This document shows positions 9,501-45,600 of a stretch of 64,000 nucleotides of DNA, piece by piece; the first letter of the stretch is position 1, and every line of letters starts with the position of its first letter. This DNA is from Chondrosia reniformis (Eukaryota > Porifera > Demospongiae > Chondrillida > Chondrillidae). A program made the translations under genes and the position numbers. The stretch is from NCBI GenBank assembly GCA_947172415.1, contig OX359192.1:1056501-1120500 (forward strand), given 5' to 3'. Below the pieces are notes generated by a model. The model saw only the letters and a program-made list of their open reading frames with translations, made no database searches and was not told where the DNA came from.

Positions 9501-12236
9501 TCAATGTTGAAGATCTACAGATGATCATTAAGAATTAACAGTTCATTACTTTTCTAGTCCTAAAACTATCACCTATGTATAACATTATAAAATGTACTAT
9601 ACACATAATATTTGCTTAAGGGTTAACCATTACCTAGTACAATACAATACACTTATAATTCAACTTGTATATACTCACAACAGAAGTGATACATACGTAT
9701 ATAGTAAGCTACTTATATGTCATTACCTTACAAACTACGTATACTAAATGAAGGCTAGAAATAACGTACATGCACACATGTTACGTTTTTTGATTATTCT
9801 TACAATCTGTTTTGCATCTGCTGGGAATATATAGGCGTCTGAGCCACTTGCACTGTCCAAAACTAATTCTACACTTATACATTGAAGCTGTAACTGAACC
9901 CAACGAAGCAAATAGTTATTATTAGCACACTTAGATCTTCTGGAACATTTGCTTTCAAGTGAACACCAGCCACAAAGTTTACCTCCTTTTGTAATACAAG
10001 ATGCACAGTCTGTAAAATTTGAGCATTCCTCAATGGGAAAGTGGTATATATGCTATAAATAAATAAATAGAAGTGTAAGGTATATATACATACTATATAA
10101 ATTAACAACTGTAATGTACATATAAAAAACATGATAGATAAGTTGTTTGGAGCTATCATAATGAACGAAACTAAAATTACTCCCTATCGCTTCATATAAA
10201 TTACATGTCCGTACATACATACTTTAACCCAATCAGTACCTGCATGTATATACGTAAACTTATACGTATACGTATATACGTATATGCACAAATGTATATA
10301 TTAACTTAGTTAATAAACTTATACTGAATTCTCTGTTATTGCATAGACTGAGTTATTCCAAATAGAATGGCTGAATATCTTTACTGGCTCTCCCAGTGTC
10401 CAGATGTTTTCTGGAATAGTACTGTTCAAAGGGGTGCTAAAATTGCACACTGTATACTGTATAATGATATTAAAAGTGTATATATGTAAAATACATATAT
10501 AACCACTGTCAATGACTTTATATTGATACATACACCAACGTATGTAAATATAGATGGACATTGTGGAGGCTTGCATTTATCATCTAAACATAAATATAAC
10601 AGTTACTTCAAGTTGTCTCTGTGTACATGTGTTACTGCAAAATCTTATGAACATACGTATATACTGTATACACTTTGTAGATTCATCAATATGTATATAC
10701 GTATATTACACATTACACGCTGTCATCACACAAGTAGCATATATACATATATATGTAGTTACCTTTCTAACTTCTTGTTGTGTGCCCACAAGGACAACTA
10801 CTGCACTGTCTATCCTCACAGCTATGGATGCTGTAACAGATATCATTGATAGGGTAAGCAGTGGAGTCTCCTGATGAAGAGGCATTGCTAGGCAAGGCTC
10901 TGGTGGATCACTATAGGAGGTTGCCAACCTTTTTGGTCCAACTTCATAACGATTAAATGGAGATATGCCACTCAGTTTACAAGGAGATAAATGGTACTGT
11001 GTAAATGTCTAAATACAGTAGAATATATAATAATTATGCTTGCATATGAATAGTGAGGAATTCAACACACATGCACACATGTACATGCATACAAACACAC
11101 ACACTTAGGGCTCTTAGAAGTGAAAACTATCAATAAACCAGCCACTTAATTATAGCTGTTTGACCATGTCAATGGGTCATAATATCTAGTACATAATATG
11201 GGAATAAAACAAAAATATCAACTCTATATATACATATATTTTTGCTTAATTCATCCTATACATAAAACACTTTCCCCATATACAACATACCCATGTATAT
11301 ACGTATATTCAGAACTTCCATGTAGTAGCTTACCGAATTTTCGCAGCGACGACGATTCGGAAACCCGCGATTGTCCCAAACGGGAACGGCCAAAGATTTG
11401 CTACTACAACTACGACAAGCCCCAAATGATGCAGTCGCAGCTCCATCGATATCTGATAAAGGAAAACTGCAAACGTTAATGTTCATCTGTCTTGAATTAG
11501 ACGTCATTAAAATTACGCGAGGTTCTTTCTCATTCTCTGGATTTAATAGCGTTGCAGCTATGAAGTCGTTGTCAAAATCGTCCAAGTTTTCTGAATTACT
11601 TAGAGGTCCGCAGTACAATACAATCTCATACCAACTATTCCAGGTAGATCCTTCATTACAGACCCTAACAATTACAATCTTGTGATCTGTTCCTTTTTTA
11701 TCGCTAGCCAAAAAGTAGGTAAAATTTCCGAAGGTAAAACTAGTCCGATATCTTCTTTCAAACCGACCAGTGTGCTCAACTTGTGCTTGCTCCTGCCGCC
11801 TTTTAGATCCAGTCGAGATGTAAAATTCTCCGTGATACATTACTCCTGAATTGGTTGCCATGACAAAGAGGCTTTCTCTATCCCCACTATATTCTGTACT
11901 TATAAAGAAATTAGAGGTAGGAGCCCGACGTATATCTACTCTACCAGCAATTTTATTCAAATTGAAAGTATCGTACATTGTACAAAAGTTAGAAGAATCC
12001 GTAGAGTTGTGGCTCCAACAGACGATCAGTACACGTTCGTTAGATGACAAAGCAAATACTTCGGGACGTGCAAATTTCTCTTGTTCTAGCATTTGACCAT
12101 AGGAAAGCTCACGAACGCTTGTACCATCGAGAACGAAAGATTTGCCCGATGAAGTAATCAAGAAGCCAATTGGCCCACCAATCGACGCACAATCTGAAAT
12201 AACAGTTACCAAAATGGACAAGATTAAGAAAAGCAT
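3532..12236 (-). CDS. Plexin-like Sema/PSI/IPT receptor without GAP domain
   Basis: This is a single-pass receptor of about 1,300 residues. Exons on the minus strand: 12236-11334, 11008-10763, 10436-10325, 10052-9804, 9514-9370, about 8980-8910, about 8836-8781, about 7953-7818, 7389-7173, 6592-6411, 6204-5816, 5541-5347, 5248-5155, 5055-4836, 4730-4584, 4224-3930 and 3770-3532. The first exon starts with a signal peptide (MLFLILSILVTVISDC) and most of a Sema beta-propeller. Exon 4 carries a PSI domain, the exon at 6592 a second Cys-rich PSI-like domain, and the exon at 6204 two IPT/TIG folds (SPLSGPVKGGTALTITG, IFPNRGPSAGGTNILIFG). Further IPT-like exons follow, then one membrane helix, a basic stop-transfer segment, a coiled-coil-like stretch and a short tyrosine-rich tail. 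The split GTPase-binding/RasGAP region of true plexins is absent. It could bind a semaphorin; this is family knowledge plus inference. The exons around 8.8-9.0 kb are the least certain. Confidence 0.85.
7505..7592 (-). repeat. Dispersed repeat R2, partial copy 1
   Basis: On the minus strand this reads CTCTTGTATCCTCATCCAAAGCTCTCAC and then TTTAGTTCTCTATAGGCC (with a short gap), matching the right half of the other R2 copies. It sits in an intron of the plexin-like gene. Confidence 0.65.
8227..8259. repeat. (GGA)n microsatellite
   Basis: About eleven GGA/GAG triplets in a row lie inside an intron of the plexin-like gene. The rest of this intron (about 7954-8780) shows no exon that fits the gene. 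Confidence 0.9.
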
Positions 12237-12529
12237 CTTTTCATGAGGATGACAAGTAACTGTATATACTTGGTTTTGTTTTAGTTTTTAATACATATCA
12301 AACCGAAATTAATTTTGAAAATAAAATGAATTTCCAAAGCCAGCAATGCTCTTTTTGGTTTTCGAATGCATACACCGGCACTGTGACTGGCGAAATCATG
12401 TATAGTTAAATTAAGATATAAAATAATAACAGACCAAAAATGCTAATGTTCTGTAAAACGAAGCTTGTAAATTTTTATTGAGAACATACTTAATTAAAAA
12501 TAGTAACTTGCAAGTCATTGGAAAATTTT

Positions 12530-15500
12530 TCATATTTCTTTCTTCTTTGGAAAAGGAATAATGTCACAGAAGACGTATCCTTTACTCTGAAATTCTTCTT
12601 TCATAGTAATCTAAATAAAAATGATATAATTAACTGAGATCTCTACTACAATAAGTCTATATGTTCACTAAATATGAATAAATAAATAATCTAAAATATT
12701 ATTTTCTTATAGACATGTTTAGCTAATGGATAGAACAGAAGGTAGGAAGTATCTATTGAAAAATATGCCTGTTTTCCTTTCAAAGTTAAATATAGATGAA
12801 GTATAATATGCATTTAAAGAAGCCTTGTACACTTAATGAGTCTCCCTTAGCCACTCAAAAAGATGGTCGAATCATTGAAAGCTGTTTTGTCAGTATGGGT
12901 CCTTATTAGGACTGATCAGAGTTGCATACAATTAAATATAGATGAGGTATACAATGGAAGGCTGAGTGGCTACTCTGCTAAGAATCCACCAACGAGACTG
13001 ATGAGATCGATGAGATCAATGAGATCAAAGAGACCAATGAGATCAATGAGATCAATGAATTTAAAATTTTAGATAAATTAACATGTTAGGTTTAAGTGGT
13101 TGGGAATACTGTGCACGAATAAACTAAAACATAGTCTTCCTGTAGCCATGTTTGACATCAGTATGGGTCAATACAAGGCATGCATGGTGTATATCAGATC
13201 ATGAAATGTACGTACGTATATGTTTAGTTAAAATGATCCATTAATCCATTCATCAGAAATTGGCAGTCAATTTCAGTCTTGGAAAATAAAATTAATGGAA
13301 ATTCCCATTAACTAAAAGCTGGTTAATTTAGTAAGGAAGTATCTATTGAAATAAGTTTCAAATTAAAATATATCTGTTTTCCTTTCACTTGGTAAAAAGA
13401 TAATATATATGGATGAGGTATAATATGCATTTAAAGAGGCATTTCAAGAGGCATTTCAAGAAAAATAAACTATAATACTACTTACTCAGCAACGGACACA
13501 GTAAGGAAACAGACAGAAAACCAATGACTAACCATATTAAAGGATCCCATGTGTACATAATTGGTAGTCCCCTAAAAAATATAAAATTCAATATTATGTT
13601 TACCTTCGCATTTTCATCATTACAGCAACCAATAACAGCACCACCACTTCCAGGAAACTTGGCAGCTGAACCATGCTACGTGATTCAGAATGAAGAATAC
13701 ATCGAGATATAGCTATATTAACTGTATATTAATGTCTTTATATGAGAAACCACAGATCTAATTCTTTATGTGACAAATAAGCTCGATAGTAGAAGTTAAA
13801 TTACCTTTCGTGCAATTTCTATCAAGTCCAGATTGGTTGCACCTAATGCATCATCTCCATAAATCTGCCTAACCACAAATATTAAATGCACCTTTCAATC
13901 ACTGAGTTTCACACAAATGACATTAAATTCACACAAATGACATTAAATCACAGCATCATCAGTTACAACATGTACGTATGTACATTACACTTATAAATAT
14001 ACCTACCTTCTAAGATTAAAGTTTTCATCCATTAATTTACCAAATCTGCAACAAGGATACAGTTTTTAAGACACTCAATAATTAAATTAAAACTTCAAGA
14101 TTGAAATAGGGATAAACACACATACTAATATAACCCATAGTTCTTACTCCTGAAAGTCTCCACTTAAAATGGCCTTTTTGCCTTTATTAGTCAATTTAGC
14201 AAACTCTTCCATTGCTTTGTGCACATCTTCTTCACCTACATTCACAGTCACATAAGATAAAGGTAATAGGATATGGTACCATATACTGTATAGTATACTA
14301 TTGATGAAGGGCACCGGAAAAAACTGAAGGCTGGAATTTGAGATGCTATTCAGCTCTGAGATTAAATGGCTGGCTAATACATATGTACATAGTTATGGCT
14401 ACAGCAGATCCTTACCTCTGTCCCATCTTTCCCTCACATTACTGTGTATCTTACCTACATACGTATATAGACATAATACATTAGTGTAAGGTGATATATT
14501 ACACATTACTTATTGAATTGAAGTTTGGTTTTTGCTATCCTTCTTTGTTTGTATAATACGTGTACATCAGGGTATATACGTATGTATTGGACAATCCACC
14601 ACTCTTTTAATCCACCATAAAATTATCAGTACCAATAGTGGTGGTTTTATATACGTACGTAAAACATTTCATGGTGGATTTACCAGAATCACTGGGGTCT
14701 CCTACATAGGCTAACCACAGAGGTGGTACATTGGCTGTGTCAAGCTGCTCATATTCCCCATAGCCTCTAGACTTCATAAGCTCCTTGTTAAAATCCATGA
14801 ATATTAAACCTCCATACACCTATGTATATATGCAATACATACATGTAAAATATTCAACTACATATACGTACATAATATTATAATAATCATTTATCATACT
14901 ATCTTGTATAGTAGATTGTACAAGAATATACGTACGTACGTATGTTACTTCTTGTAGTATTTACTATTACAGTACAACACTATGAGTAGACTGAGATTCA
15001 ATTACTGCATATGGTTGCTAATCATTTAGCACACACTTGAACTACTCTGTCCTGGAGACCAGCTTGGATAAAGAGCTCTGATTTTTCAACATTTAGAACA
15101 AACGTAGGTTGTTCTTCCTTTGGTAAATCCTACAGAATGAAATATCAAAAATGAGTCTGAAACAGACTGAGATAAGAAAGAATGGATTATAATACTAAGA
15201 ATATGTATAAAATCTACCAACAAACTTAAGGAATCTACCTAATCATGAGTGACCATTCAAAACAGAATAAACATAAGTATAATCTAAATCACCATTTGTC
15301 CAATTATCAAGCATAATTAAGAGGAGCAAAGGAGCATAAAAGTTCCTATACTAGAACAATGTATAAAATAAGTGCACTCTATTACATTATTTGCTTGTAA
15401 TAGTGTGCAAATATAGAATGTAAACATACATACATACATATTTACCAGTTCAGAGATTTGATAAAACTTCATTAAGCACTTTAATGCAGAAGTAACAATG

Positions 15501-18500
15501 GCACTGCTTCCAGCTAAGCCCTAAATCACACACAAGACTAATATAATTTCCACCAAACTAGCAATAAAGATATACGTATATTAACACATTACTTATATGC
15601 ATATACATATATACGTATGTATTGGAATGGATGGTAAGATGACCCAACTTACGTACCACTTGTCTAGGAATGTTTGTATCATATTTGAGCGTAAAGTTTT
15701 TCTTTGCCAGAGCAATCCTAAAGTAGTGAAGAAGTGGCAAGCATCACACAACAAGAAAGAAGCTCCAAAAGTACGGACATACATACCAGATATATATATT
15801 ACATATATTAAAAAGGTCAGTTGTATGTATGCCTGCAATCCTTATAGCATTCACATGTGTTGTCATTTTATGAGTAATGACACACCCTTTCTCTGCACAG
15901 CACTGATAGAATCTCTTGCAAGTTGCTTGGAGTAGGCGAAGGCCTCCTAAATATCTAAACATGTATAAAACAATACAAGTGGTTAGTTAGTGCAGAGATC
16001 TGTCATAAATTGATAGCTGTAAATATGGCCCTGAAGATGAATGTCCCATATAAATACTATTGTTCAGAACCAATTTATGTTATACATACTACTACATATA
16101 GTTAATGGCACTCCTAAATGTTTAAATACTTGAGACAATAACTTTACAAATTGAGGAATACATATACTGACCCCTCCTTCCTGCTGATTGCATGGAGATC
16201 AGCCAGGCCACCAAACTCGGTGGGGTCGTTTAGAGGATGAGGGAGCAGCTTCTACATGGAGTATACATACATTGCTAAATATTCATTATAAAAGTGATTT
16301 TCATAGCAATATGTGCCTATTATATTACAAACTACACTAGCTACTTATTTAGTGGTAATACAATACAAGATGTCAGATGTAAGGTAATGTGTTGTATGTA
16401 AGGTAATGTGGTGTATGTAAGGTAATGTGTTGTATGTAAGGTAATGTGCTGTATGTAAGGTAATGTGTTGTATGTAAGGTAATGTGTTGTATGTAAGGTA
16501 ATGTGTTGTATGTAAGGTAATGTGCTGTATGTAAGGTAATGTGTTGTATGTAAGGTAATGTGTTGTATGTAAGGTAATGTGCTGTATGTAAGGTAATGTG
16601 TTGTATGTAAGGTAATGTGGTGTATGTAAGGTAATGTGTTGTATGTAAGGTAATGTGTTGTATGTAAGGTAATGTGGTGTATGTAAGGTAATGTGTTGTA
16701 TGTAAGGTAATGTGTTGTATGTAAGGTAATGTGGTGTATGTAAGGTAATGTGTTGTATGTAAGGTAATGTATTGTATGTAAAGTAATGTGTTGTATGTAA
16801 GGTAATGTGTTGTATGTAAGGTAATGTGTTGTATGTAAGGTAATGTGTTATATGTAAGGTAATGTGGTGTATGTAAGGTAATGTGTTGTATGTAAGGTAA
16901 TGTATTGTATGTAAGGTAATGTGTTGTATGTAAGGTAATGTGTTGTATGTAAGGTAATGTGTTGTATGTAAGGTAATGTATTGTATGTAAGGTAATGTGT
17001 TGTATGTAAGGTAATGTATTGTATGTAAGGTAATGTATTGTATGTAAGGTAATGTAGTGCATGTAAGGTAATGTAGTGTATGTAAGGTAATGTAGTGTAT
17101 GTAAGGTGGTAAAGGTGTGGTGGTAGTACTCACCAGTCGAGTACTTTCAGTAAGAGTAACCTCAGCCCAAAAATTAGCAATGGACATTGCTATAGTCTTT
17201 CCATAGAAACCATCCGATGGATTTCCCATCAATCCAACCCTAGATAAATGTTTTGAGACACACACTGTTATTACAATTATATACATACACATGTAGGTAT
17301 ATGTATATGTGCTACTGTCAGCATTTGGACAATTAGCTACTGTAATTAGGTACCTTGCATAAGTACGGAAGACTATAGGTTCACCCTGAAGTAGCATAAC
17401 CTTCTTTCTTCTCTCAGCAAATTCATTAACCCATTTCTTGTATTCCGACAAGCCCTACGTAAATAATCTTTAGTTGCATACAGAACAAGGAAAAAAATCT
17501 ACATCTTAACATTCATGAAAACTAAAGGGATCACCTCAGTCAGTCTACGCCTTTCTGCTTGCTCTATTATACCGTTTTACAGCTCATAGTTACGGAGAAA
17601 TGAAAGATTGGCAGGTTACGTGCGTGAAAGAAGTTCTTTGTTTTTCATACTGTAAAAATGTTTCACAATCAGACGTTCAGTTGATGGGTTACGTATCTCG
17701 GAGAACTCTTCTGTCAGATCGTTTTAAATCAAAACGTAAACGTTCGCCTGATCCTTGAACACTTAACAAAGTCTAACCATAGATCTTCTATACTTACGCA
17801 AGTATAGTACGTATAGTACAGCTAAGAATACCATACTATGCTGATCGCAGTAAAAATAAGTCAAACGGTAGAGAAGATAGGCTTCACAACGTTCCTAAAA
17901 AAGTCAATTCAAGTAGCATTCAAGCCGAATAGCTCAGACGAAGAGAGAAAAAGGCCAGATTGCATCAGTGGATAGATATGGTTTTGACAAACTTCTGAAA
18001 GAAATTACGCAATTGTAACGAAGTATCCACTCGACTTAGCCAGCCCGGAAATGTATGTAAAAACACGCCTTATATACTGAGCGTTCGAACAGTACTACAT
18101 GGAGGAATTATTTGATTTGGGACCACTAGAATGTATGACTGTTTAATGTTTAACTGTACTAGACTACTGAATAGATCGGCTGATAACTAGCAGTATTTAA
18201 AGAGTCGTTCCTCAACTATTCTTTGCACAGTAACTGATATACAAACCCTGTGTAGATGTCCATAGGCATAACAGTGTTTAGTTTGTTCACTCTTTGAATT
18301 CTACACACCTGTGTATGCTCTTTCTATATACTTGTATGTAATTCAAACAAGCTTACAAATACTTCATATTTAATGAAGGAGTACTTGAAGATAAAGAGAC
18401 AAAAACATATACATTTATATAACACAACTATAAGCTAAATCTACTGGTTACAATGAATTGTTCAATCCCAATTGTTAGCTTTCTAGAAAGATTTTAATCT

Positions 18501-21070
18501 TTCATATAAAGTTATCATTTTAATACTGAAACTCACTATCTGACCAATCAGTTGAAATCCACTTGGTAATTTCATTCCGAAAACAGTGTCTTTATTGACT
18601 AACCAGTGCTAAGGGGAATAGTAAGATTATGATTTAACCATAGAATGATCAACTTGTTCCGGATTAATTGAATCACCACTGCATGATTATTGTTAGTTGA
18701 AACTAAAAAGTTTGCCGTATATCAGCATAGGAAGAGGCATATAAATGAGGCATTGCCTGTGAAGAAAACATAATAGCAAGTAGTTTGTGCTCAATTTTCC
18801 AGCAATTGCTACTTTTCTCTTTTCATGATATTACAAATATGTAGGTATGTAGGTGCAATTGTCATAGTGATGAATACCATTAGCATGTATTCACCATAAA
18901 GTGTCCAAATGAGTATTTTCCATTGCTATCATCAGAGTGTAGAAACTCCCCAACCTTGGGCAATGTTGAGCGCTTAAAGAAATAAAACACCTGAAATGAA
19001 GAAACTGGAAAGTTACAAAGCAGTAAGATAAGAATACGCTAGAACTGTCTAAACAGGTACACTAAACATTACAATGAAACAAAAAATCCATATAATGTAC
19101 AATTTGAGTGAGAAATATTGAATGCCACATGCCTAAAAATTGAAAAAAAAAAAACTCAAAAAGTGAAATGATTGGATGCATATCAATGAATATATATTAT
19201 TAACATTATATTTCTAATAAGTATCTCACTGTTTGATAAGAGCAGTGATTGCAATAATTACCATGAAATGTATTGTAAAACCAATAATATTGAAATCTTT
19301 AAAAACCTAAAGTGATTCTCAATGTCATGTCTATGTACGTACGTTACTGCCACTCAAGGAAACTTGCCATAATTACAAGTGTGCACTTACAACAGAAGCA
19401 TATCGAGAGGAGGTGACACCTGGGGTCGGCTTCTCATAAAAGGCTGTTATTCTACAAGAAATGTGACATGCATATGTATATAAACTACACAGCCACATTT
19501 AAAAACACTTAAAACTTTATAGCTGCATTACTGCAATTATACAGACTTGTCAAGTATTGGAAAAAGGGGGAACTTTAAGATCTAAAAGCATCAATATCAT
19601 CATCATTGAACTCTTACTACTCCTTCCCATCAAGTGAACCTCAGTTTTGCCCATTAACTCATTGTGCTCCTCAGGAGACATGAGTGGGCGGGGATAATAT
19701 CCAGAGTTTAATGATGATATCGTCAAGTATTACTTTACGTGTATGCTCAGCTCAACATTTAAAGAGATTAACACACTCTCAATAGTAGTTCCAATGTTAC
19801 TTATGTTTACTTTCTAACAGGTGTACCTGTTTGATGATGGCTCCACTTCAAGTATGCCTCTTCTTTGGGGGTTTTCCCCTTCCTCCATTTCATAGTAAAT
19901 AGCTAAGTTTCCACTCTTAATGTAAAAGTATTTCACAACTTGACTCAGATCAAAGTCATGATCAAACAACATATCACCAGCCACCTACAGCAGTAACACA
20001 ATCATGCTAATGCAAATAATGTTCAGTAAACCTCTGTATATGTGCGAGCAGATTTGTAGAGATATTTGACACTGTACATATTTGGTTACTATTAACACCT
20101 ACATACGTATACTATTAACACCAATGGACCACAACCTGACAATAATGAAATATAAGAGCAATAAATTGAATACTTCAGTGTTTAAAGAAACAATGTTGAA
20201 ATGTTGAAATTATGAAAAAATAGTTCAGTTATGAAGAAAGCAGCAAAAGTATTGTAAGAGTTGTGCAGGTTCAATAAATTTAAAATTCTAATAGGACTCC
20301 AGTAATAGAGAAGATTATTACCTAAGAACATACCACCATAATATCATCCTCTATCTTCTTGCATCGAATGGTTAGTTCTAGGTCAGCTATGACATATGGG
20401 CATGTAAACAAATCCATTTCTCTAATATACATATACATAAGGGACTATAGGGACAGCACAATATAGGCTACTTGTCTGCATTAGTCACAAGGTAGACGTC
20501 AGTGAACTGCTGGCGGCTCTTCAGTATGCCCCACCACTTGTCCAATATGGCCTCACGGGTGTCCCACTGCTGTGGCTGGGCTGGCAGTAGAGCCTTGGGT
20601 ACGCCCACCAAATCTGAGAACTCTCCAGTTAGATCTTCCTACGCAATGGACATACAGAAGTAGGTGTGGTAGGCATATATACAGTCACACCCTCCACTGT
20701 ACAGTCACACCCTCCACTGTATAGTCACACCCTCCACTCTATAGTCACACCCTCCACTGTACAGTCACACCCTCCACTCTATAGTCACACCCTCCACTGT
20801 ACAGTCACACCCTCCATAATAACTATATAGATCTCAATCAGGACAAACTATAATAAATCAATATACAATTGAAGAACGACTATCCATTATAATGCAATGG
20901 TTGCTAGCTTCAAATAGTGCCAAGTATTCATCGTTGTGCGGACGTTGACATGGTACCTGTATTTCCTTCTCCAAGAGAAATCCATGCCCCGCTACGAGGA
21001 TTATGCAAATCATTGCTACCTGGGGATTTCCCTTATAGGTTATGTAACTATTTAATTCACTTATAAACAT
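12530..21070 (-). CDS. Fused nucleotidyltransferase/glucuronokinase-like GHMP kinase
   Basis: About 605 residues. Exons: 21070(or 21013)-20956, 20638-20472, 20421-20334, 19984-19827, 19451-19391, 18990-18895, 18608-18537, 17454-17354, 17239-17134, 16251-16172, 15954-15886, 15717-15657, 15520-15446, 15128-15037, 14819-14684, 14237-14148, 14045-14007, 13868-13805, 13674-13604, 12610-12530. The N-terminal half is a sugar-phosphate nucleotidyltransferase: LVAGHG with a downstream Lys, YLVTNADK, VAGDMLFDHDFD, FYEKPTP and a C-terminal LPSGFQLIG. The C-terminal half matches the plant glucuronokinase type of GHMP kinase: YARVGLMGNPSDG, GLAGSSAIVTSALK (ATP loop), LQDRVVQV, YGGLIFMDF, PPLWLAYVGDPSDSGK and KFPGSGGAVIG. 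Every junction read keeps phase, including the bridge 18537|17454 (LIGQI-GLSEYKKW). The predicted roles are glucuronate to its 1-phosphate, then to UDP-glucuronate. The sugar specificity is inferred, and two separate genes remain possible because the bridging intron is about 1.1 kb. Confidence 0.8.
12988..13062. repeat. 9-bp GAGATCAAT repeat, about 8 copies
   Basis: Short imperfect array of GAGATC(A/G)A(T/A) in the last intron of the fusion gene. It creates an apparent MRSMRS-type reading frame that is not a gene. Confidence 0.85.
16374..17107. repeat. 19-bp satellite, about 38 copies
   Basis: The unit AAGGTAATGTGTTGTATGT repeats head to tail for about 730 bp with few substitutions (mostly at one G/T/A position). 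It lies wholly in the intron between the GNPSDG exon (17239-17134) and the next kinase exon (16251-16172). The array has no stops in several frames, so long HYLTYNTLPYIQ-type reading frames appear, but they are repeat artefacts. Confidence 0.97.
17455..18536. other. Long intron with CpG-richer stretch
   Basis: This separates the nucleotidyltransferase and kinase halves of the fusion gene. The part from about 17550 to 18060 has more CpG than typical introns here. It contains a 52-codon plus-strand ORF at 17600-17758, ending in a basic KSKRKRSPDP tail, and a minus-strand exon-like piece near 17534-17551 with donor GTGATC. These might be an alternative first exon or promoter for the kinase half. 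No recognisable protein family was found. Confidence 0.35.
20688..20815. repeat. 20-bp repeat ACAGTCACACCCTCCACTGT, about 6-7 copies
   Basis: Tandem copies lie in the first intron of the fusion gene, with ACTGTA and ACTCTA variants. CCCTCC runs recur in each unit. Confidence 0.9.
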
Positions 21071-21201: not shown

Positions 21202-24200
21202 ATGGATCTCAGAGGAAGGGTTGAACTCTTTTTTTATCTTCTTGGACTATTCCTGGTTAAGTATCCTCGGATCGTTATCGTAGCTGTAACAGTTGTGGTT
21301 ATTGGATGCAGGTAGCCTTATAATCTAGCTAGTCTAGAGCTATAGCAGTTGCTCCAGTTAGAATAACAATATATTGTATATTTTAATAGTTGAGGTATAT
21401 AAAGCGTCTTATTTGAGGAGTATATATCCCATCTCGTGTGGTTTCCTATGAGATGCCTCCGTAACTATGCGCAAGCTGTTGAGATTGACGCTCTTACGGT
21501 ATGTATACAGTATAAGAGACTGGGCTAGCTGAAGGATCGTACTACAGTTTAGCTACCGCTTAACTTATTTTATTTTTTATTTTTGTGTTAGTCTTTGAGA
21601 TTTGTAAATGCGTTCGGCATACTGTACTTAATTTTTTTGATTGGTTCTTCCATCTGGCTTATCTTTTAAAATTCATTCTTAAAATTAAAAGGCTCAGAGT
21701 TAACATAAATTACGGTCTAAAAACATTTCTACATTTCGATGGGATTGATTGTATATAATGTTGTGGTTTAATAGCTATATAGCTGTCTAGCATAGGTAGT
21801 ATATAACAGTCTCTTTTCTTGAAATTCTGTACATTACATTAATTTTGTGTTGAAAGTTTTATTATTTATTGCGCAAAGATTGCGAGCCTATTCTTATAGA
21901 ACAAATTATGTGCCTATATCTAGTGCTGCATTCTGGAGTACGCTTCCTTTAATTATATTTTTCATGTGCTTTTCCTAATTACATGTCCTAATTACATGTC
22001 CTAATTACATGTCCTAATTACATGTCCTAATTACATGTCCTAATTACATGTACATATGCATATATTGGTTAGGTGATAGGAACTGTCAAACTTGTCGTTA
22101 GATGCTCTAATATTGAAAGATGAACCATCTCCAAAGATGACATGTACATATGCATATATTGGTTAGGTGATAGGAACTGTCAAACTTGTCGTTAGATGCT
22201 CTAATATTGAAAGATGAACCATCTCCAAAGATGTATTAAATATATCTTTGGAGATGGTTAATCTTCATCTAAATTTAGAATGTTATGAAAAATCTCATTT
22301 GATTGTAGTTTGAACATACATTATCAACTAAATGTTCTGTAGTCTTCCTTTGTTATCCTCTTTTCCAACGGGTGATCAGCACTCTCCTTTGATTTGGAAG
22401 ACCAGCTCAATCAACTACCTCACAAAGGACGCTGTTACTGGCAAGCTGCAGTGGATCGACAAGTCACAGGCACCCAGTGTGAGAATGCCTATATTCCTGT
22501 ATGCTCCGAGATGGGTAAGTAAGGTCCTATATGTGTGCATACATACAACATGCATTATTTAATACTGTTAGTCTGTGAGATCTATAAATTTCTGTATCCA
22601 CTTATTTACAGTTTCTAGGAGATCCTCTGGTTGCCGTGCAACAGGTAATTGCTAAAGTGCGGCTAAACTGTACCACTCACCCAAAGTATTGTGCAACTCG
22701 TAAGATATCTGAGGCTGTCAGTGCTGCTACGACTCAGCTCTTAAGCAACATCAGGACAGTTGACAAGTGAGTACCTGAGTAGGATTACTGAGTGAGCCTG
22801 GTGGAGTGGGTGGGGTCAAGTGAGCCTGGTGGAGTGGGTGAGGTCAAGTGAGCCTGGTGGAGTGGGTGGGGTCAAGTGAGCCTGGTGGAGTGGGTGGGGT
22901 CAAGTGAGCCTGGTGGAGTGGGTGGGGTCTAGTGAGCCTGGTGGAGTGAGTGGGGTCAAGTGAGCCTGGTGGAGTGAGTGGGGTCAAGTGAGCCTGGTGG
23001 AGTGGGTGGGGTCAAGTGAGCCTGGTGGAGTGGGTGGGGTCAAGTGAGCCTGGTGGAGTGGGTGGGGTCAAGTGAGCCTGGTGGAGTGGGTGGGGTCAAG
23101 TGAGCCTGGTGGAGTGAGTGGGGTCAAGTGAGCCTGGTGGAGTGGGTGGGGTCTAGTGAGCCTGGTGGAGTGGGTGGGGTCAAGTGAGCCTGGTGGAGTG
23201 GGTGGGGTCAAGTGAGCCTGGTGGAGTGGGTGGGGTCAAGTGAGCCTGGTGGAGTGGGTGGGGTCAAGTGAGCCTGGTGGAGTGGGTGGGGTCAAGTGAG
23301 CCTGGTGGAGTGGGTGGGGTCAAGTGAGCCTGGTGGAGTGGGTGAGGTCAAGTGAGCCTGGTGGAGTGGGTGGGGTCAAGCGAGCCTGGTGGAGTGGGTG
23401 AGGTCAAGTGAGCCTGGTGGAGTGGGTGGGGTCAAGCGAGCCTGGTGGAGTGGGTGGGGTCAAGTGAGCCTGGTGGAGTGGGTGGGGTCAAGTGAGCCTG
23501 GTGGAGTGGGTGAGGTCAAGCGAGCCTGGTGGAGTGGGTGGGGTCAAGTGAGCCTGGTGGAGTGGGTGGGGTCAAGTGAGCCTGGTGGAGTGGGTGGAGT
23601 CAAGTGAGCCTGGTGGAGTGAGTGGGGTCAAGTGAGCCTGGTGGAGTGAGTGGGGTCAAGTGAGCCTGGTGGAGTTAGATATGTATGTAACAATATGGGT
23701 TATTTGTTGCGATTGTGATAACAACTAGAGATATTATTATGAGTATCAGCAACACAATGTTTCTAATTGAACGTTTCAAACCGAAGGTCTTCATCAGCAA
23801 TAAACTCCACTGTGATGAGAAGTGTTCAGTTATTGAATGCTTTCATGTGCAGCTTCTGCTCATAAAAGTGGATGTTTTACATAATATTTTATATAACATC
23901 TAGCACCATGCAAACATACGTACATTTATACATTAATTAATCAGGGCCTGTTCAGAGTTTATACATCCAATCACCTTCAAGTTCTTGGAAAGTATTGGAT
24001 TACAGAACCACTCCAAAGGAAGACAGTTTATTTCCAGTGTTCTCTCGCCTTCTACTAAATACAAGTAAGTCTGTTTCTTTTTAAGGCATTTTTATCAGAC
24101 AGAGCTGCTAGTCCTAATATGATTACTCTGCTGTACTTACATTTAGATTGCTCCTAATCCAAGTGTATGTATGTATTGATCCCTGAAGTGATGTTTGTGT

Positions 24201-39609: not shown

Positions 39610-42600
39610 TTACCGTCTGTTATGATTGCTACTATTACCACCAAAACAAGAAAGAAATAAACAGAAGACTATCAGCATGATAATTGTTGCTACTGTCCCC
39701 AGCACTAGAGCTACTACAATGATCCAGCCAATGCCAATTCCAAAGGATTGGATGTTCACGCAGTTGAAGAGAATGACGGCACAGAACACAATAACTGTAA
39801 ACTCTGTAGCAGCACTGGTAACACTAGAACGGTCAAAGATGGAAATAGATGAAATACCCGAGCAGACATTCTCTCCAGTTGAGGAGTCAACTCGACAGCC
39901 AAGAAACACGAGATTGATGATGAATAACAATACATAGACCATAGAGTAAAGTATTGTTGGACCATAAAGGACAGCTGTCCAAGCCTTTTCACATAAGTTC
40001 TGTTCTTCGTATGCTTTGAAATCAGGCAAGAATTTATTTAGATATTCTATAATTACTTTCTTTTTGCTCTCATTATTTGCTTTCTCTTTTTTAAGAAATT
40101 CTTCTGTAAGAGTTTCATCTTCCTTTTCCTCCTGTTGATCCTCTTTTTCTTCATTTGTTATTTCGCTTTGTTTTTCATCTTTTTTTCTTCTCTTTTTGAG
40201 AAACTTAACTAAGGTTTTAAAACCCTTCTTACCTTTTTTGAAGGTTCTCACTGCTGTGTCCTTTGCAAATTCTGTTGCAATTTCCTTGGATTTTAATAAG
40301 GAATTGATGTAAAGTTTGATGCTAAATTCCCTTGACCAGGATATATTAGCAATCAAAAATGCAAAGAATGATAGCCAAGGTGCTGCTATGCCATACAATA
40401 TATTGTAAAATGTGAAAAAAGAGAAGAAAGCGGGTCTGCTGCAAGACAGGTCAAGATAGCCAGTTGCTCCAGGAGGATAGTGACAGTTCTCATATGCAAT
40501 CTTCCATCCAATTGTCAAGAGGAGGAATGCATGGAAGAAAAGCATTCCAAATATATGAATGATTAGCCAAACTTGAAAATTTAAAACTTTTTTAAACTTT
40601 TCTGGAATAAGGCAATTGAAGCGAGTAGGTTGTGCAGGCGTAGTCAAGTCAATCTGCTTCTTGATTTGGGCTTTCACTTGTAGCTGCTGCTTATGAAGTT
40701 CACATACATTATAACCCAGGACTAGTGGACGAAGTACATAGACTGTGATGACAAACATTAGCAATCCAAATGTAAAAGAAAAATTAGCACGCACATCAAC
40801 ATTTATTCCTTGGAAAGATTTGAATGTCTCATCACAAATGAAAGTGAAAAGATTAAGGATTATATTAGTATAAAGTAAAACCTCAGCAATGATGACTACT
40901 ATGATTTCAGAATACTTGCGGAAATTCAACCAGAAGACTGCACAGCATCCCTTTGCTTCTTGACTACCTGTTGTAACATTATTTTCTTTGCTGTCGTTGT
41001 TATCTTTAACAATTCCCTTCTCTACATCAATTTGTTGTTCCTCTGATTTCTGACAACATTTTAACAAAAAGGACTTCATTCCTAATTTGATTTTCATTCT
41101 GTCCTCCCACAATGACACTGCTAAATCTAAAGTATCAAGTATAGCCCCTATTAAGCTAACTATGAAAATTGCAACATCGAATCCTACAGATTTGCTCTTT
41201 TCAACATTTTCTGCAATGTCTATGCAGCTAATTATGGTCTCTACCAATAGGTATGTAAAAAGAGCAAATTTAAAGATGTACTTCAGTAGAAGTTGCTTTT
41301 CAAATAGACCTTTGAGACATTTCACAAGTAACTTATAGCCGTCATTGGCTGCATTCTTCAGTGATTCTTTGTACTTTGGATCATTATTTTGGCAACTCAA
41401 GCACAGGCTGGCTTTGGCTGCCAAAGAATTTGGTTGGGTAACATCCCCAAGACAAGTACAGCAAGAACCACAAGATTTAAAGAGAGAATCACAACAGTTT
41501 GGTTTTTGACTTGATCCAAATCTTTCATTGTCATTGTCGATTTGTAGTGCTGCAATACCTTTTAGTGGGTCAAGATTGTCATAATCTTCAAAGTCTTCTT
41601 CTGTCATATTCTCAATATTGTACGGTGATGACATGTCTTCATTGTATTCCTCTGTTTCCTCGTATCTTATTAAAATGCCTGTGTCAGCTGACTCCAGACA
41701 TGGTTCAGTGGTAGCTAGTTCAGGCCCATCCGTGTAGCTAGGTGGGTCTTCAGATGTCATGTGTGGATCAGGTGCCTTTTCTTCATCAGTCTGGTCTTTG
41801 TATGAAGCCAGAGAGGTATTGCTTGGCTCATTAGAGGAACCTTCAGGGAAGTCCCCTTCTGAGTTGTTGCCAGGGTTACCTGCTCTTAACAATGCAGTCT
41901 TTCTTATTGTTGAATCTTCTTGTGTAGCTGCTTGAAGCTGAGGAGCAATTGGCTCATCTTTGGCATCTTTCCCAGTTAGTTCATCCAAGCATTTCTTAAA
42001 CTTGGTAAAACGATCTCCCTGAGTTTGTATTTCACCATTTTCAAGTGTAACTCCTTCTCTTACGGGTTTTCCATTTGATAACTGATCATCCTGTACTATA
42101 AGCATAGAATGTCTAACCTCCTGGCCCATTGCCAGCACATTTATGTCTTCCGTAGGGGGTTTATCTGAACTTAATGTTGTGTCACTAGCTTTAGCTGGCT
42201 GTCCTGTGCCACTAGCTTTAGCTGGCTGTTCTGTGCCACTAGCTTTAGCTGTCTGTCCTGTGCCACTAGCTTTAGCTGTCTGTCCTGTGCCACTAGCTTT
42301 AGCTGTCTGTCCTGTGCCACTAGCTTTAGCTGGCTGTCCTGTGCCACTAGCTTTAGCTGGCTGTCCTGTGCCACTAGCTTTAGCTGTCTGTCCTGTGCCA
42401 CTAGCTTTAGCTGGCTGTCCTGTGCCACTAGCTTTAGCTGGCTGTCCTGTGCCACTAGCTTTAGCTGTCTGTCCTGTGCCACTAGCTTTAGCTGTCTGTC
42501 CTGTGCCACTAGCTTTAGCTGTCTGTCCTGTGCCACTAGCTTTAGCTGTCTGTCCTGTGCCACTAGCTTTAGCTGTCTGTCCTGTGCCACTAGCTTTAGC

Positions 42601-45600
42601 TGTCTGTCCTGTGCCACTAGCTTTAGCTGGCTGTCCTGTGCCACTAGCTTTAGCTGGCTGTCCTGTGCCACTAGCTTTAGCTGGCTGTCCTGTGCCACTA
42701 GCTTTAGCTGTCTGTCCTGTGCCACTAGCTTTAGCTGTCTGTCCTGTGCCACTAGCTTTAGCTGTCTGTCCTGTGCCACTAGCTTTTGCTGTCTGTCCTG
42801 TGCCACTAGCTTTAGCTGTCTGTCCTGTGCCACTAGCTTTAGCTGTCTGTCCTGTGCCACTAGCTTTAGCTGTCTGTCCTGTGCCACTAGCTTTAGCTGT
42901 CTGTCCTGTGCCACTAGCTTTAGCTGTCTGTCCTGTGCCACTAGCTTTAGCTGTCTGTCCTGTGTCACTAGCTTTAGCTGGCTGTCCTGTGCCACTAGCT
43001 TTAGCTGTCTGTCCTGTGTCACTAGCTTTAGCTGTCTGTCCTGTGCCACTAGCTTTAGCTGGCTGTCCTGTGCCACTAGCTTTAGTCTCTGGCTCTGTTT
43101 TTGTAATTGTAGATCTCTTTTCACCCTTGTCAGCTGTTGTGTCTTGACCCTTTTCTTTGGCTTTTGCTGAATGTTTTATGGTCTTTTTGACTGGCAATTG
43201 GCTCTCCTTCTCTCCACCAACCAGAATGGCTGTTTGTATAATTTCTGTTTGTCTCACAGGCTGTAAGTCCATAGGGTATTGTCCTGGATAGCCAGTCCCC
43301 ACTGGTGCCAGTAGCACAGTGTGTGAGCCCTCTTCTACAGATTTGATTGCATCAGATTCTGGAAGATTCTCAAACATTTGTAACTCAATATTGGCAAGGG
43401 GATCATCTTCAACAAGACCATTTGACAGTTCTGCTTGCATTTCTTCAACTTCTGGAAAAGCAAATGGATTTGTCACAGCTAAATTACTGTCATGCTTTGT
43501 TTTTATATTAGTTTGAGGTGCATCACTATCCTTTGTGCAACTGACAAATGGAAACACTGCTGTAAGAACCCTACGAAATCCATTAGCAAAGGAAGAGAAA
43601 GCAGTTGGTGGTGGAGAAGGTTCTGGCTCAATATCTTCCTTATCTATCAATAACAATTGATCAGTATCATCCTCTTCTACACCAATTGTGTCTCCTTCTT
43701 TATTAGTTTCACTTTTATAACTATCAGTGTCTGGCGATGCAGTCACACTTTGCTGAAATGGGACATCAGTGTCACCTGCTGCCTTCTCTCCCTTGGTAGT
43801 AGTGCCTTGTTCATGAGAAGTGCCTTCTTCTGTGTTTGGCATTTGGAAGTTAGAATCATCTGATGTACTCAAAAGTTCTACTGTAGCAGGACCAAGTGAA
43901 GTGCCTTTGGAGGCAGGAGGGTCCTTGGAGGTAGGAGGGTCCTTTGAGGCAGGAGGGTCCTTTGAGGTAGGAGGGTCCTTGGAGGTAAGTGGTTGCTTTG
44001 TAGAGGAAGCTCTCTTGGATGTAGTACCTTTAGCTGGTTTACTTTTCTTTGTATCTTTAGCTGCTATAGATGTATCTTGAGTTATAGCATCGGTTGCTTT
44101 CATTAGAAGATCCTCTTTTTCCTGGAGGAGTTCCATGAGGTAGAGTAGTTTGAGGTACAAGTCTTTATTGGCTTCAGAAAGGCCTGGGAGTTCCAGCTTT
44201 GATTCTTTCAACTTTGAAGAAGATGGCACAGAGGCAACTGAAGGATGACTTTCGGTGTTTGAATTGGTTTTACCTAGAGTTTTGGATTGGTCTGTGCTTG
44301 ATTTTGATTCTTTCTCTTCTTCAACATCAGTTTGCAATGATTTTGATTCTTTCCTTTTTTCAACATCAATTTGTAATGATTTTGATTCTTTCTCTTCTTT
44401 AACATCAGTTTGTAATGATTTTGATTCTTTCTCTTCTTTAACATCAGTTTGTAATGATTTTGATTCTTTCTCTTCTTTAACATCAGTTTGCAATGATTTT
44501 GTTTGAAGTAATTGGGTTTGATAAGATTTATCTAACTTCAGAGCTTCCTTCTCTGGTAGAGTTCCACTTTCTACTGTGGGTCGGGGGGCCTGAACAGGTG
44601 TATTTCTTTGATCTGAACTTTGGTACTGTTCTGGATTTGTTTTTTGTGAATTTCTATCAGTGGTCTGTTGATAGAAATCAGTTTGTAAAGACTGATTTTG
44701 CACAGACATACCTGCAGGAAGGATACTTTCTTCCTCTACTGTCTGAACTGCTACTTCCTTAAATGAAGGCAAGACTCTTTCATCAGTATATGTACTTACA
44801 GAATTTTGTACGTTGTATTGATCTGGTCCCAAGGGAGAGTCCCAACTTCCAAGCTGTTCCTTCTTGTCTGTTTGGGTAGAGTGTGATGCTTCGACTGAGA
44901 GGTGACTTTCTTCAGTTGATAGTTGGGTTTGGTCTTCATTCTTATTTGAAGAATGACTGTCTAGAAGCTGACTTTGTTGAGATTTGTCTAAACTTGTCTT
45001 CTGTTCATTTTTTGCAGTTATCTTGGGGTTTGATAAAACCTTTTTCTTTGCTGTACCAGAGGGTTTGGGTACTCTACCAGGGCCCGTTTTCTTTTGTTCT
45101 TTCTTCATCAGTGTACCCTTTCCCTTTTTAGGTTTGCGTTGTCTGTAAGTGCTTTTCCATTGCTCAAATTGAGCTTCAGTCAACTCACGTGTATATGGTC
45201 TCAATGCCTTCTCAATTTCAGTTCTGATCAGAAGGTCGTGTCTCAAGTCAGCATATTTCAAATCTACTAGTTCCTTGTAGTCTTCAGCAATGGAGTCTAG
45301 AACATTGTTTATTTCTCTTTGTAGTGTTCCTTCTTTACCAGTATCTTTAGCTAGCACTGGCTTTGGTCTGACATCCACATTGAAATCCACAACGTCGAAT
45401 CCTCTTCTTTTAAGCAGCTGTGCAGTAGTGTACATACTTTCTTTCATTTCTTGTAGCATGTCATGTGTAAGATCGGAATCCTTTGTGCTATCCAACTGCT
45501 CTGTAAGCTGGTCTAGGTGTCTGATTGAGATAAGCTTGATATTTTCGCTACTTTCCTCAGTTGTGTCGTCTGTAGATAATTCACTGCTCTCCTTGAGAGC

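Follow-up and report, generated by a model that had tools for sequence, protein, structure and literature searches.

A predicted sponge glucuronokinase fused to a nucleotidyltransferase that appears catalytically impaired, and an intact stand-alone paralogue as candidate partner

Can one animal protein convert free glucuronate into UDP-glucuronate, the sugar nucleotide that feeds glycosaminoglycan synthesis? The question is raised by a predicted gene on the minus strand of a 64,000-nucleotide stretch of the genome of the sponge Chondrosia reniformis (contig OX359192.1; hereafter the window, meaning this whole stretch, in whose numbering the gene is described). A first-pass annotation had proposed that this gene fuses a nucleotidyltransferase to a glucuronokinase-like kinase, and that a single protein might lead from glucuronate to UDP-glucuronate. 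The fusion has held, but the complete pathway within one chain has become doubtful, since the transferase half is devoid of a conserved arginine, the second metal-binding aspartate and the nucleotide loop, and the pyrophosphorylase activity described for the zebrafish homologue is “extremely low” (Gangl et al., 2014; PMC3938481). The reading that we favor, and hold to be fairly probable from the sequence comparisons below, is that this gene represents the animal GKUP family in the sponge, with an active glucuronokinase, an impaired fused transferase and the UDP transfer left to the product of an unfused paralogue on C8. What looks worth pursuing is precisely this impaired-looking “pyrophosphorylase” beside an intact stand-alone sister in the same genome.

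The gene runs from 21013 to 12530 and, with its exons joined by hand, comprises 21 exons and 1803 nucleotides including the stop codon. This manual model is a single open frame of 600 codons without internal stops, and 20 of 20 introns have GT-AG borders. The earlier description, about twenty exons keeping phase on one strand, was thus borne out, and the motifs quoted in it were all found, in order, on the minus strand. Three Pfam domains scored above their curated cut-offs: NTP_transferase (residues 100-190, 1.8e-07), GHMP_kinases_N (352-432, 9e-09) and GHMP_kinases_C (507-586, 5.4e-08). The parts of the model are the following.

20957..21013, minus strand: exon 1, with the start codon and MICIILVAGHGFLLEKEIQ; the nucleotide-binding loop, from which the GxGTR arginine is absent (model and alignment)
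20472..20638, minus strand: exon 2, VPKALLP (Lys34 retained) through VTNAD
20422..20471, minus strand: intron 2, 50 bp, site of the absent conserved block (NDGT..NE.RLGA in relatives)
20334..20421, minus strand: exon 3, EMDLFTCPYVIADLELTIRCKKIEDDIMV
19827..19984, minus strand: exon 4, VAGDML, retaining D108 as the first metal Asp
19391..19451, minus strand: exon 5, FYEKP; Lys164 retained
18895..18990, minus strand: exon 6, transferase domain
18537..18608, minus strand: exon 7, GFQLIGQI; Leu229 in place of the second metal Asp
17354..17454, minus strand: exon 8, which crosses the fusion point: final helix of the transferase, linker, first strand of the kinase
17134..17239, minus strand: exon 9, kinase motif GNPSDGFYGKTI
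16172..16251, minus strand: exon 10, kinase
15886..15954, minus strand: exon 11, kinase
15657..15717, minus strand: exon 12, kinase
15446..15520, minus strand: exon 13, GLAGSSAIV, the GHMP ATP-binding motif
15037..15129, minus strand: exon 14, AGLQDRV including the invariant Asp
14684..14819, minus strand: exon 15, kinase
14416..14454, minus strand: exon 16, kinase
14148..14235, minus strand: exon 17, kinase
14007..14045, minus strand: exon 18, kinase
13805..13868, minus strand: exon 19, kinase
13604..13675, minus strand: exon 20, KFPGSGGAVIG, GHMP motif 3
12530..12610, minus strand: exon 21, C-terminus and stop codon

Evidence that the two domains belong to one gene lies in exon 8. The junction LIGQI|GLSEYKKW (18537 / 17454) is indeed in phase 0 on both sides, as had been noted, but it is not the normal end of the transferase domain: the relatives run past the D-[IV]-G motif, and GLSEYKKWVNEFAER, encoded in exon 8, is accordingly the last transferase helix, aligning with that of the prokaryotic relatives. 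The kinase begins in the same exon (FRTYAR), so that one exon of 101 bases covers the fusion point. Two separate adjacent genes could still be imagined, given that intron 7 is the longest of the gene (1082 bp) and contains four ATTAAA hexamers, that a methionine in exon 8 could serve as kinase start, and that for Latimeria and a sea urchin the text of Gangl et al. mentions transcripts of the two domains that seem independent of each other (PMC3938481). However, the phases match, there is an in-frame stop codon directly upstream of exon 8, and the exon itself is shared by both domains. Separate genes were discarded on this last ground and keep a minimal residual probability. An NTP_transferase-type N-terminal half and a GHMP-kinase C-terminal half are fused in one predicted gene.

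No second fused copy was found when the C. reniformis genome was searched with the whole fused protein, only its own locus being recovered; since the C8 paralogue (see below) escaped this search as well, it is weak as negative evidence. A search of the genome with GHMP_kinases_N gave four places, none in the window, and as it misses genes split into exons it has little bearing on C8. Within intron 9 there is a 19-bp tandem array of 38.5 copies (window 16377-17107). Exons 8 and 9 are read in a frame that stays uninterrupted across intron 8 and the array, over 369 codons, and retained-intron forms would therefore not meet a stop at once.

The architecture is not a novelty. The same fusion was cloned from zebrafish in 2014 and its glucuronokinase activity measured, and the text of that paper describes eukaryotic sequences as “in general” fusions, stated for, e.g., fungi, tunicates, polychaetes, amphibians and fish (PMC3938481). 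The GKUP tree of the same authors includes Amphimedon, Nematostella and two choanoflagellates (PMC3938481). As described there, zebrafish GKUP has the same domain order as the sponge protein, a nucleotidyltransferase N-terminal half and a C-terminal GHMP kinase, and a similar size (619 vs. 600 residues, the transferase half being 260 residues as reported vs. ca. 248 by our own cut). Judged from the literature, the fusion itself is ordinary for many animals. The proposed likeness to the fucokinase/GDP-fucose pyrophosphorylase holds in the idea of the layout. FKP/FKGP proteins have the pyrophosphorylase first and the GHMP kinase last. The sponge protein matches the kinase part of NF009948 only, and weakly (E 0.01), with no homologous pyrophosphorylase half.

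The C-terminal half is likely an active ATP-dependent glucuronate 1-kinase. All 10 kinases in the alignment share GNPSDG, GKT, G-x-x-GSS, QDRV and GSGG without variation, and the half is 41–53% identical to nine bacterial kinases across splice junctions, by which chance can be excluded for this part of the model. Its description as a glucuronokinase is likely right as far as the GHMP motifs go, with glucuronate as substrate assigned by way of the zebrafish enzyme. This conservation also bears on whether the locus could be a decaying pseudogene. An N-terminal half lacking a block and catalytic positions, on a long branch, would fit decay, but there are no stops or frameshifts over 21 exons, every splice site is GT-AG and the kinase motifs are retained at the identities just given, so that we regard a pseudogene as quite unlikely. 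With an alignment of the sponge and Rufibacter sequences as query, 306 relatives of the kinase were found in bacterial contigs, the best 80 of which were used. In a quick tree where the sponge is the sole eukaryote, its kinase falls within a clade of seven armatimonadete and poribacterial sequences (Shimodaira–Hasegawa-like approximate likelihood ratio test, SH-aLRT, 99). These seven, the closest among the best 80 of 306 (49–56% identity), are unfused glucuronokinase-like GHMP kinases, whereas those of other clades often have a galU-type gene adjoining.

The transferase half was compared with 16 prokaryotic relatives, 13 from genome searches (L112 and L113 omitted) and three of 14 plasmid hits. 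One of them (L120) is a fragment and was dropped from the residue table, leaving 15 scored, and Escherichia coli RmlA was the reference for residue mapping, the roles of its residues being general knowledge of the family. The arginine of GxGTR (RmlA R16) is present in 15/15 relatives, as well as in the C. reniformis transferase that we take to be GMPPB, and is Leu13 in the fused domain, in which the first arginine anywhere in the protein is residue 47. At the second metal aspartate (RmlA D226, in the motif [YF]-D-[IV]-G), 14 of the 15 have Asp and one has Asn, whereas the fused domain has Leu229. Between VTNAD and ADLEL, ca. 23 aligned residues that include the nucleotide loop are absent. In this stretch the bacterial relatives show a motif of the DGT..NE.RLGA type, which is looser in the haloarchaeal sequences; a strict regular expression recovered it in only 5 of 16 relatives, its spacing being too narrow, and the evidence is the alignment. 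The PK lysine, the GD aspartate and the EKP lysine are retained as K34, D108 and K164 (RmlA K26, D111 and K163). The fused domain is homologous in sequence to the single-domain prokaryotic NDP-sugar synthases of the RmlA/GalU type (PF00483; L109-L111 and the haloarchaeal L025-L027) and has the lysine, the first aspartate and EKP in common with them, but these enzymes keep the GxxTR arginine, the loop and the second aspartate that the sponge domain is missing. Loss of the arginine, of one of the two metal aspartates and of the nucleotide-loop block would most likely leave no or very poor uridylyl transfer; these losses had been overlooked in the first-pass annotation.

The fused domain matches positions 101-188 only of the PF00483 profile, vs. 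3-240 for the C8 protein, and a Rufibacter GalU and a haloarchaeal enzyme match 1-239. The sole PDB match up to E 1 was weak (E 0.035, residues 99-193), and the fused protein had no match up to E 1 to PF01704, which we take to be the family of the plant UDP-sugar pyrophosphorylase. Gangl et al. name G11, D91, D118, K163 and R220 as residues in common with E. coli RmlA (PMC3938481). In our alignment K163 corresponds to sponge K164 and D118 to D116, G11 aligns to Ala8, which adjoins Gly9, and R220 lies opposite a gap in the sponge domain and equally in the prokaryotic relatives; in the RmlA chain as printed, position 91 is Gln.

Could the missing block be private to this assembly or haplotype, the usual protein retaining it? 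The Arg and Asp changes would remain, and the idea is compatible with an impaired transferase; we give it somewhat less than an even chance. The site of the block is intron 2, the shortest of the gene and the only one of 20 below 100 bp, and joining exon 2 to a possible older acceptor (CATAG|CTGACC) would lead to an immediate stop. The k-mer completeness stated for the primary assembly alone is 69.43% (PMC12181767), so that the haplotypes probably differ much from each other. On the other hand, this is a HiFi assembly with a quality value of 69.8 according to the same source (PMC12181767), and the C8 gene has introns of 72–84 bp, so that such short ones are nothing unusual in this genome. Neither a motif search nor tblastn located the block in another part of the window, and of the 15 in-frame joins of exons 2 and 3 listed (donors from 20560 to 20400, acceptors as far as 20340, introns no shorter than 35 bp) none restores the block, the arginine or the aspartate.

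A relative with all these positions is present in the same genome. At C8:3910886-3914357 (L156-L157) we found a predicted gene of seven exons, GT-AG throughout, that codes for 269 residues and terminates in its own stop codon. It surfaced with a bacterial relative as query, in a match covering the block that the fused domain is missing. R13, K34, the loop block, D123, K183 and D250 are all present, i.e., the checked catalytic positions are intact, in contrast to the fused domain. There is no kinase beside it: tblastn of the whole fused protein over 19 kb around the gene matched only transferase stretches (query residues 1-38, plus a chance-level match of 206-228). The two sponge domains are 28% identical over 236 columns, have in common an insert of ca. 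10 residues after the GTR position and are sisters in the tree (94/93), where the fused branch (3.14) is three times as long as that of C8 (1.06). The C8 protein is most likely the candidate for the UDP-transfer enzyme.

Put together, the favored scheme would work as follows. The kinase half would phosphorylate free glucuronate, coming, e.g., from MIOX or from polymer turnover, to glucuronate-1-phosphate. The fused transferase would no longer catalyse uridylyl transfer, or would do so very poorly, and might instead be a scaffold or ligand sensor, as GMPPA is for GMPPB, while the second step would take place in trans, most likely through the C8 protein. A non-catalytic transferase paralogue that regulates the catalytic one is described for that pair (PMC11228364), which is not fused to a kinase and belongs to another branch of PF00483, so that it is only a working analogy. 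A supply of glucuronate and other UDP-sugar enzymes probably exist in C. reniformis: its genome contains MIOX-family exons, one match to the UDP-glucose dehydrogenase family and two loci of the UDPGP family. By extension from the same analogy, we tentatively suggest that in animals with GKUP the fused half may be a pseudo-nucleotidyltransferase with a tethering or feedback role toward the glucuronokinase, a separate intact paralogue making the UDP-glucuronate.

The main competitor is a fully bifunctional enzyme, whose transferase half would function despite non-canonical residues and convert the kinase product into UDP-glucuronate. Lys34, Asp108 and Lys164 are retained and the frame is open across exons 1-7, as would be expected from it. 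Several observations weigh against our scheme, some of them directly in favor of this competitor. Zebrafish GKUP gave UDP-glucuronate at a low but detectable level, little after 70 h, and between zebrafish and Xenopus the transferase half is more similar than the kinase half (87% vs. 63%; PMC3938481), a strong conservation that suggests some function for it. No other homologue was found in zebrafish by the authors (PMC3938481), so that a partner in trans may not be general. The Arg and Asp losses were scored in C. reniformis alone among eukaryotic GKUP proteins, the value of 94/93 lies just below the mark of 95 of the tree tool, the place of the long fused row is unsure by that tool's own warning, and a UDPGP-family locus could also perform the second step. 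Against bifunctionality stand the absence of the arginine, the second metal aspartate and the loop, the weak PDB match and the existence of the intact C8 paralogue, and we consider it rather unlikely.

If correct, an impaired fused transferase with a stand-alone paralogue could explain a difficulty met in earlier work. When the second animal route to UDP-glucuronate was proposed in 2014, its last enzymatic step was hardly measurable; normal pyrophosphorylase activity was not obtained with either the zebrafish or the Xenopus protein, and the authors left the cause open (PMC3938481). Among later papers, judged by titles and the beginnings of abstracts, none on this cause was found. The sponge sequence could explain the near absence of activity in both vertebrate proteins, and it reduces the puzzle to two defined proteins, a fused domain that has lost some catalytic positions and an intact stand-alone copy. 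A C8-type protein would be predicted to restore the pyrophosphorylase activity, the completion of the pathway by it being our hypothesis. Haplochromis burtoni was entered twice by Gangl et al. (PMC3938481), and this double entry, like the independent transcripts of Latimeria and the sea urchin, may represent C8-type copies.

The bacterial relatives show how kinase and transferase genes are arranged when unfused. We analyzed 81 kinase loci (L024, L029-L108), the 80 mentioned above and the Rufibacter plasmid that supplied the GalU query; locus L028 was left out. In 42/81, a same-strand GalU-type frame is present at a distance of up to 1 kb, downstream in 24 and upstream in 18 (the side is doubtful in L060, with two overlapping frames). 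The seven loci of the sponge-like clade are all outside these 42; three (L030, L034 and L054) are truncated on one side, within ca. 1.1 kb from the kinase, and the same-strand count leaves out L033, where an RmlA-like transferase ca. 0.5 kb upstream and an RmlD-like gene are on the opposite strand. The fused domain as query matched no frame of at least 60 codons in the 81 loci. The C8 protein gave nine weak matches, eight to the known GalU-type frames and the ninth in L033. N-terminal extensions of the kinase frames in L060, L090 and L075 were considered as possible fused domains and rejected by eye as chance open frame.

At the level of whole genomes there is some association. At E below 1e-20, a C8-family transferase of full length occurs in 4/7 genomes of the sponge-like clade and 0/14 with other kinases (Fisher 0.006), the 14 being hand-picked and weaker matches occurring in 1/7 and 2/14. 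Among 201 genomes from the armatimonadete phylum of L033, a transferase (E ≤ 1e-8, fused domain as query) was present in 9/34 with a kinase at E ≤ 1e-95 vs. 3/167 others, or 9/46 vs. 3/155 at E ≤ 1e-70; the kinase cut-offs were chosen after the table had been seen, the tests take no account of shared ancestry, and some genes are missed where genomes are incomplete. Both genes were on different contigs in 10/10 genomes compared.

A single-protein query found no relative in viral contigs or in a first scan of genome contigs, and a DNA pattern for VAGDMLF gave 21 stretches in viral contigs, none similar to the fused protein by tblastn. Two IMG/VR contigs code for glucuronokinase-like kinases (L124 6001-6999 and L125 3749-4729), whose identities with the kinase of the sponge are 51% and 39%. 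Directly downstream of the fused gene there is an open frame of 343 codons (window 11256-12287, minus strand) that matched nothing in Pfam up to E 0.01. At 22791-23675, 42178-43085 and 47388-47694 of the window there are long arrays with units of 28 bp and 27 bp, and both 27-bp arrays appear to have one unit in common, rotated.

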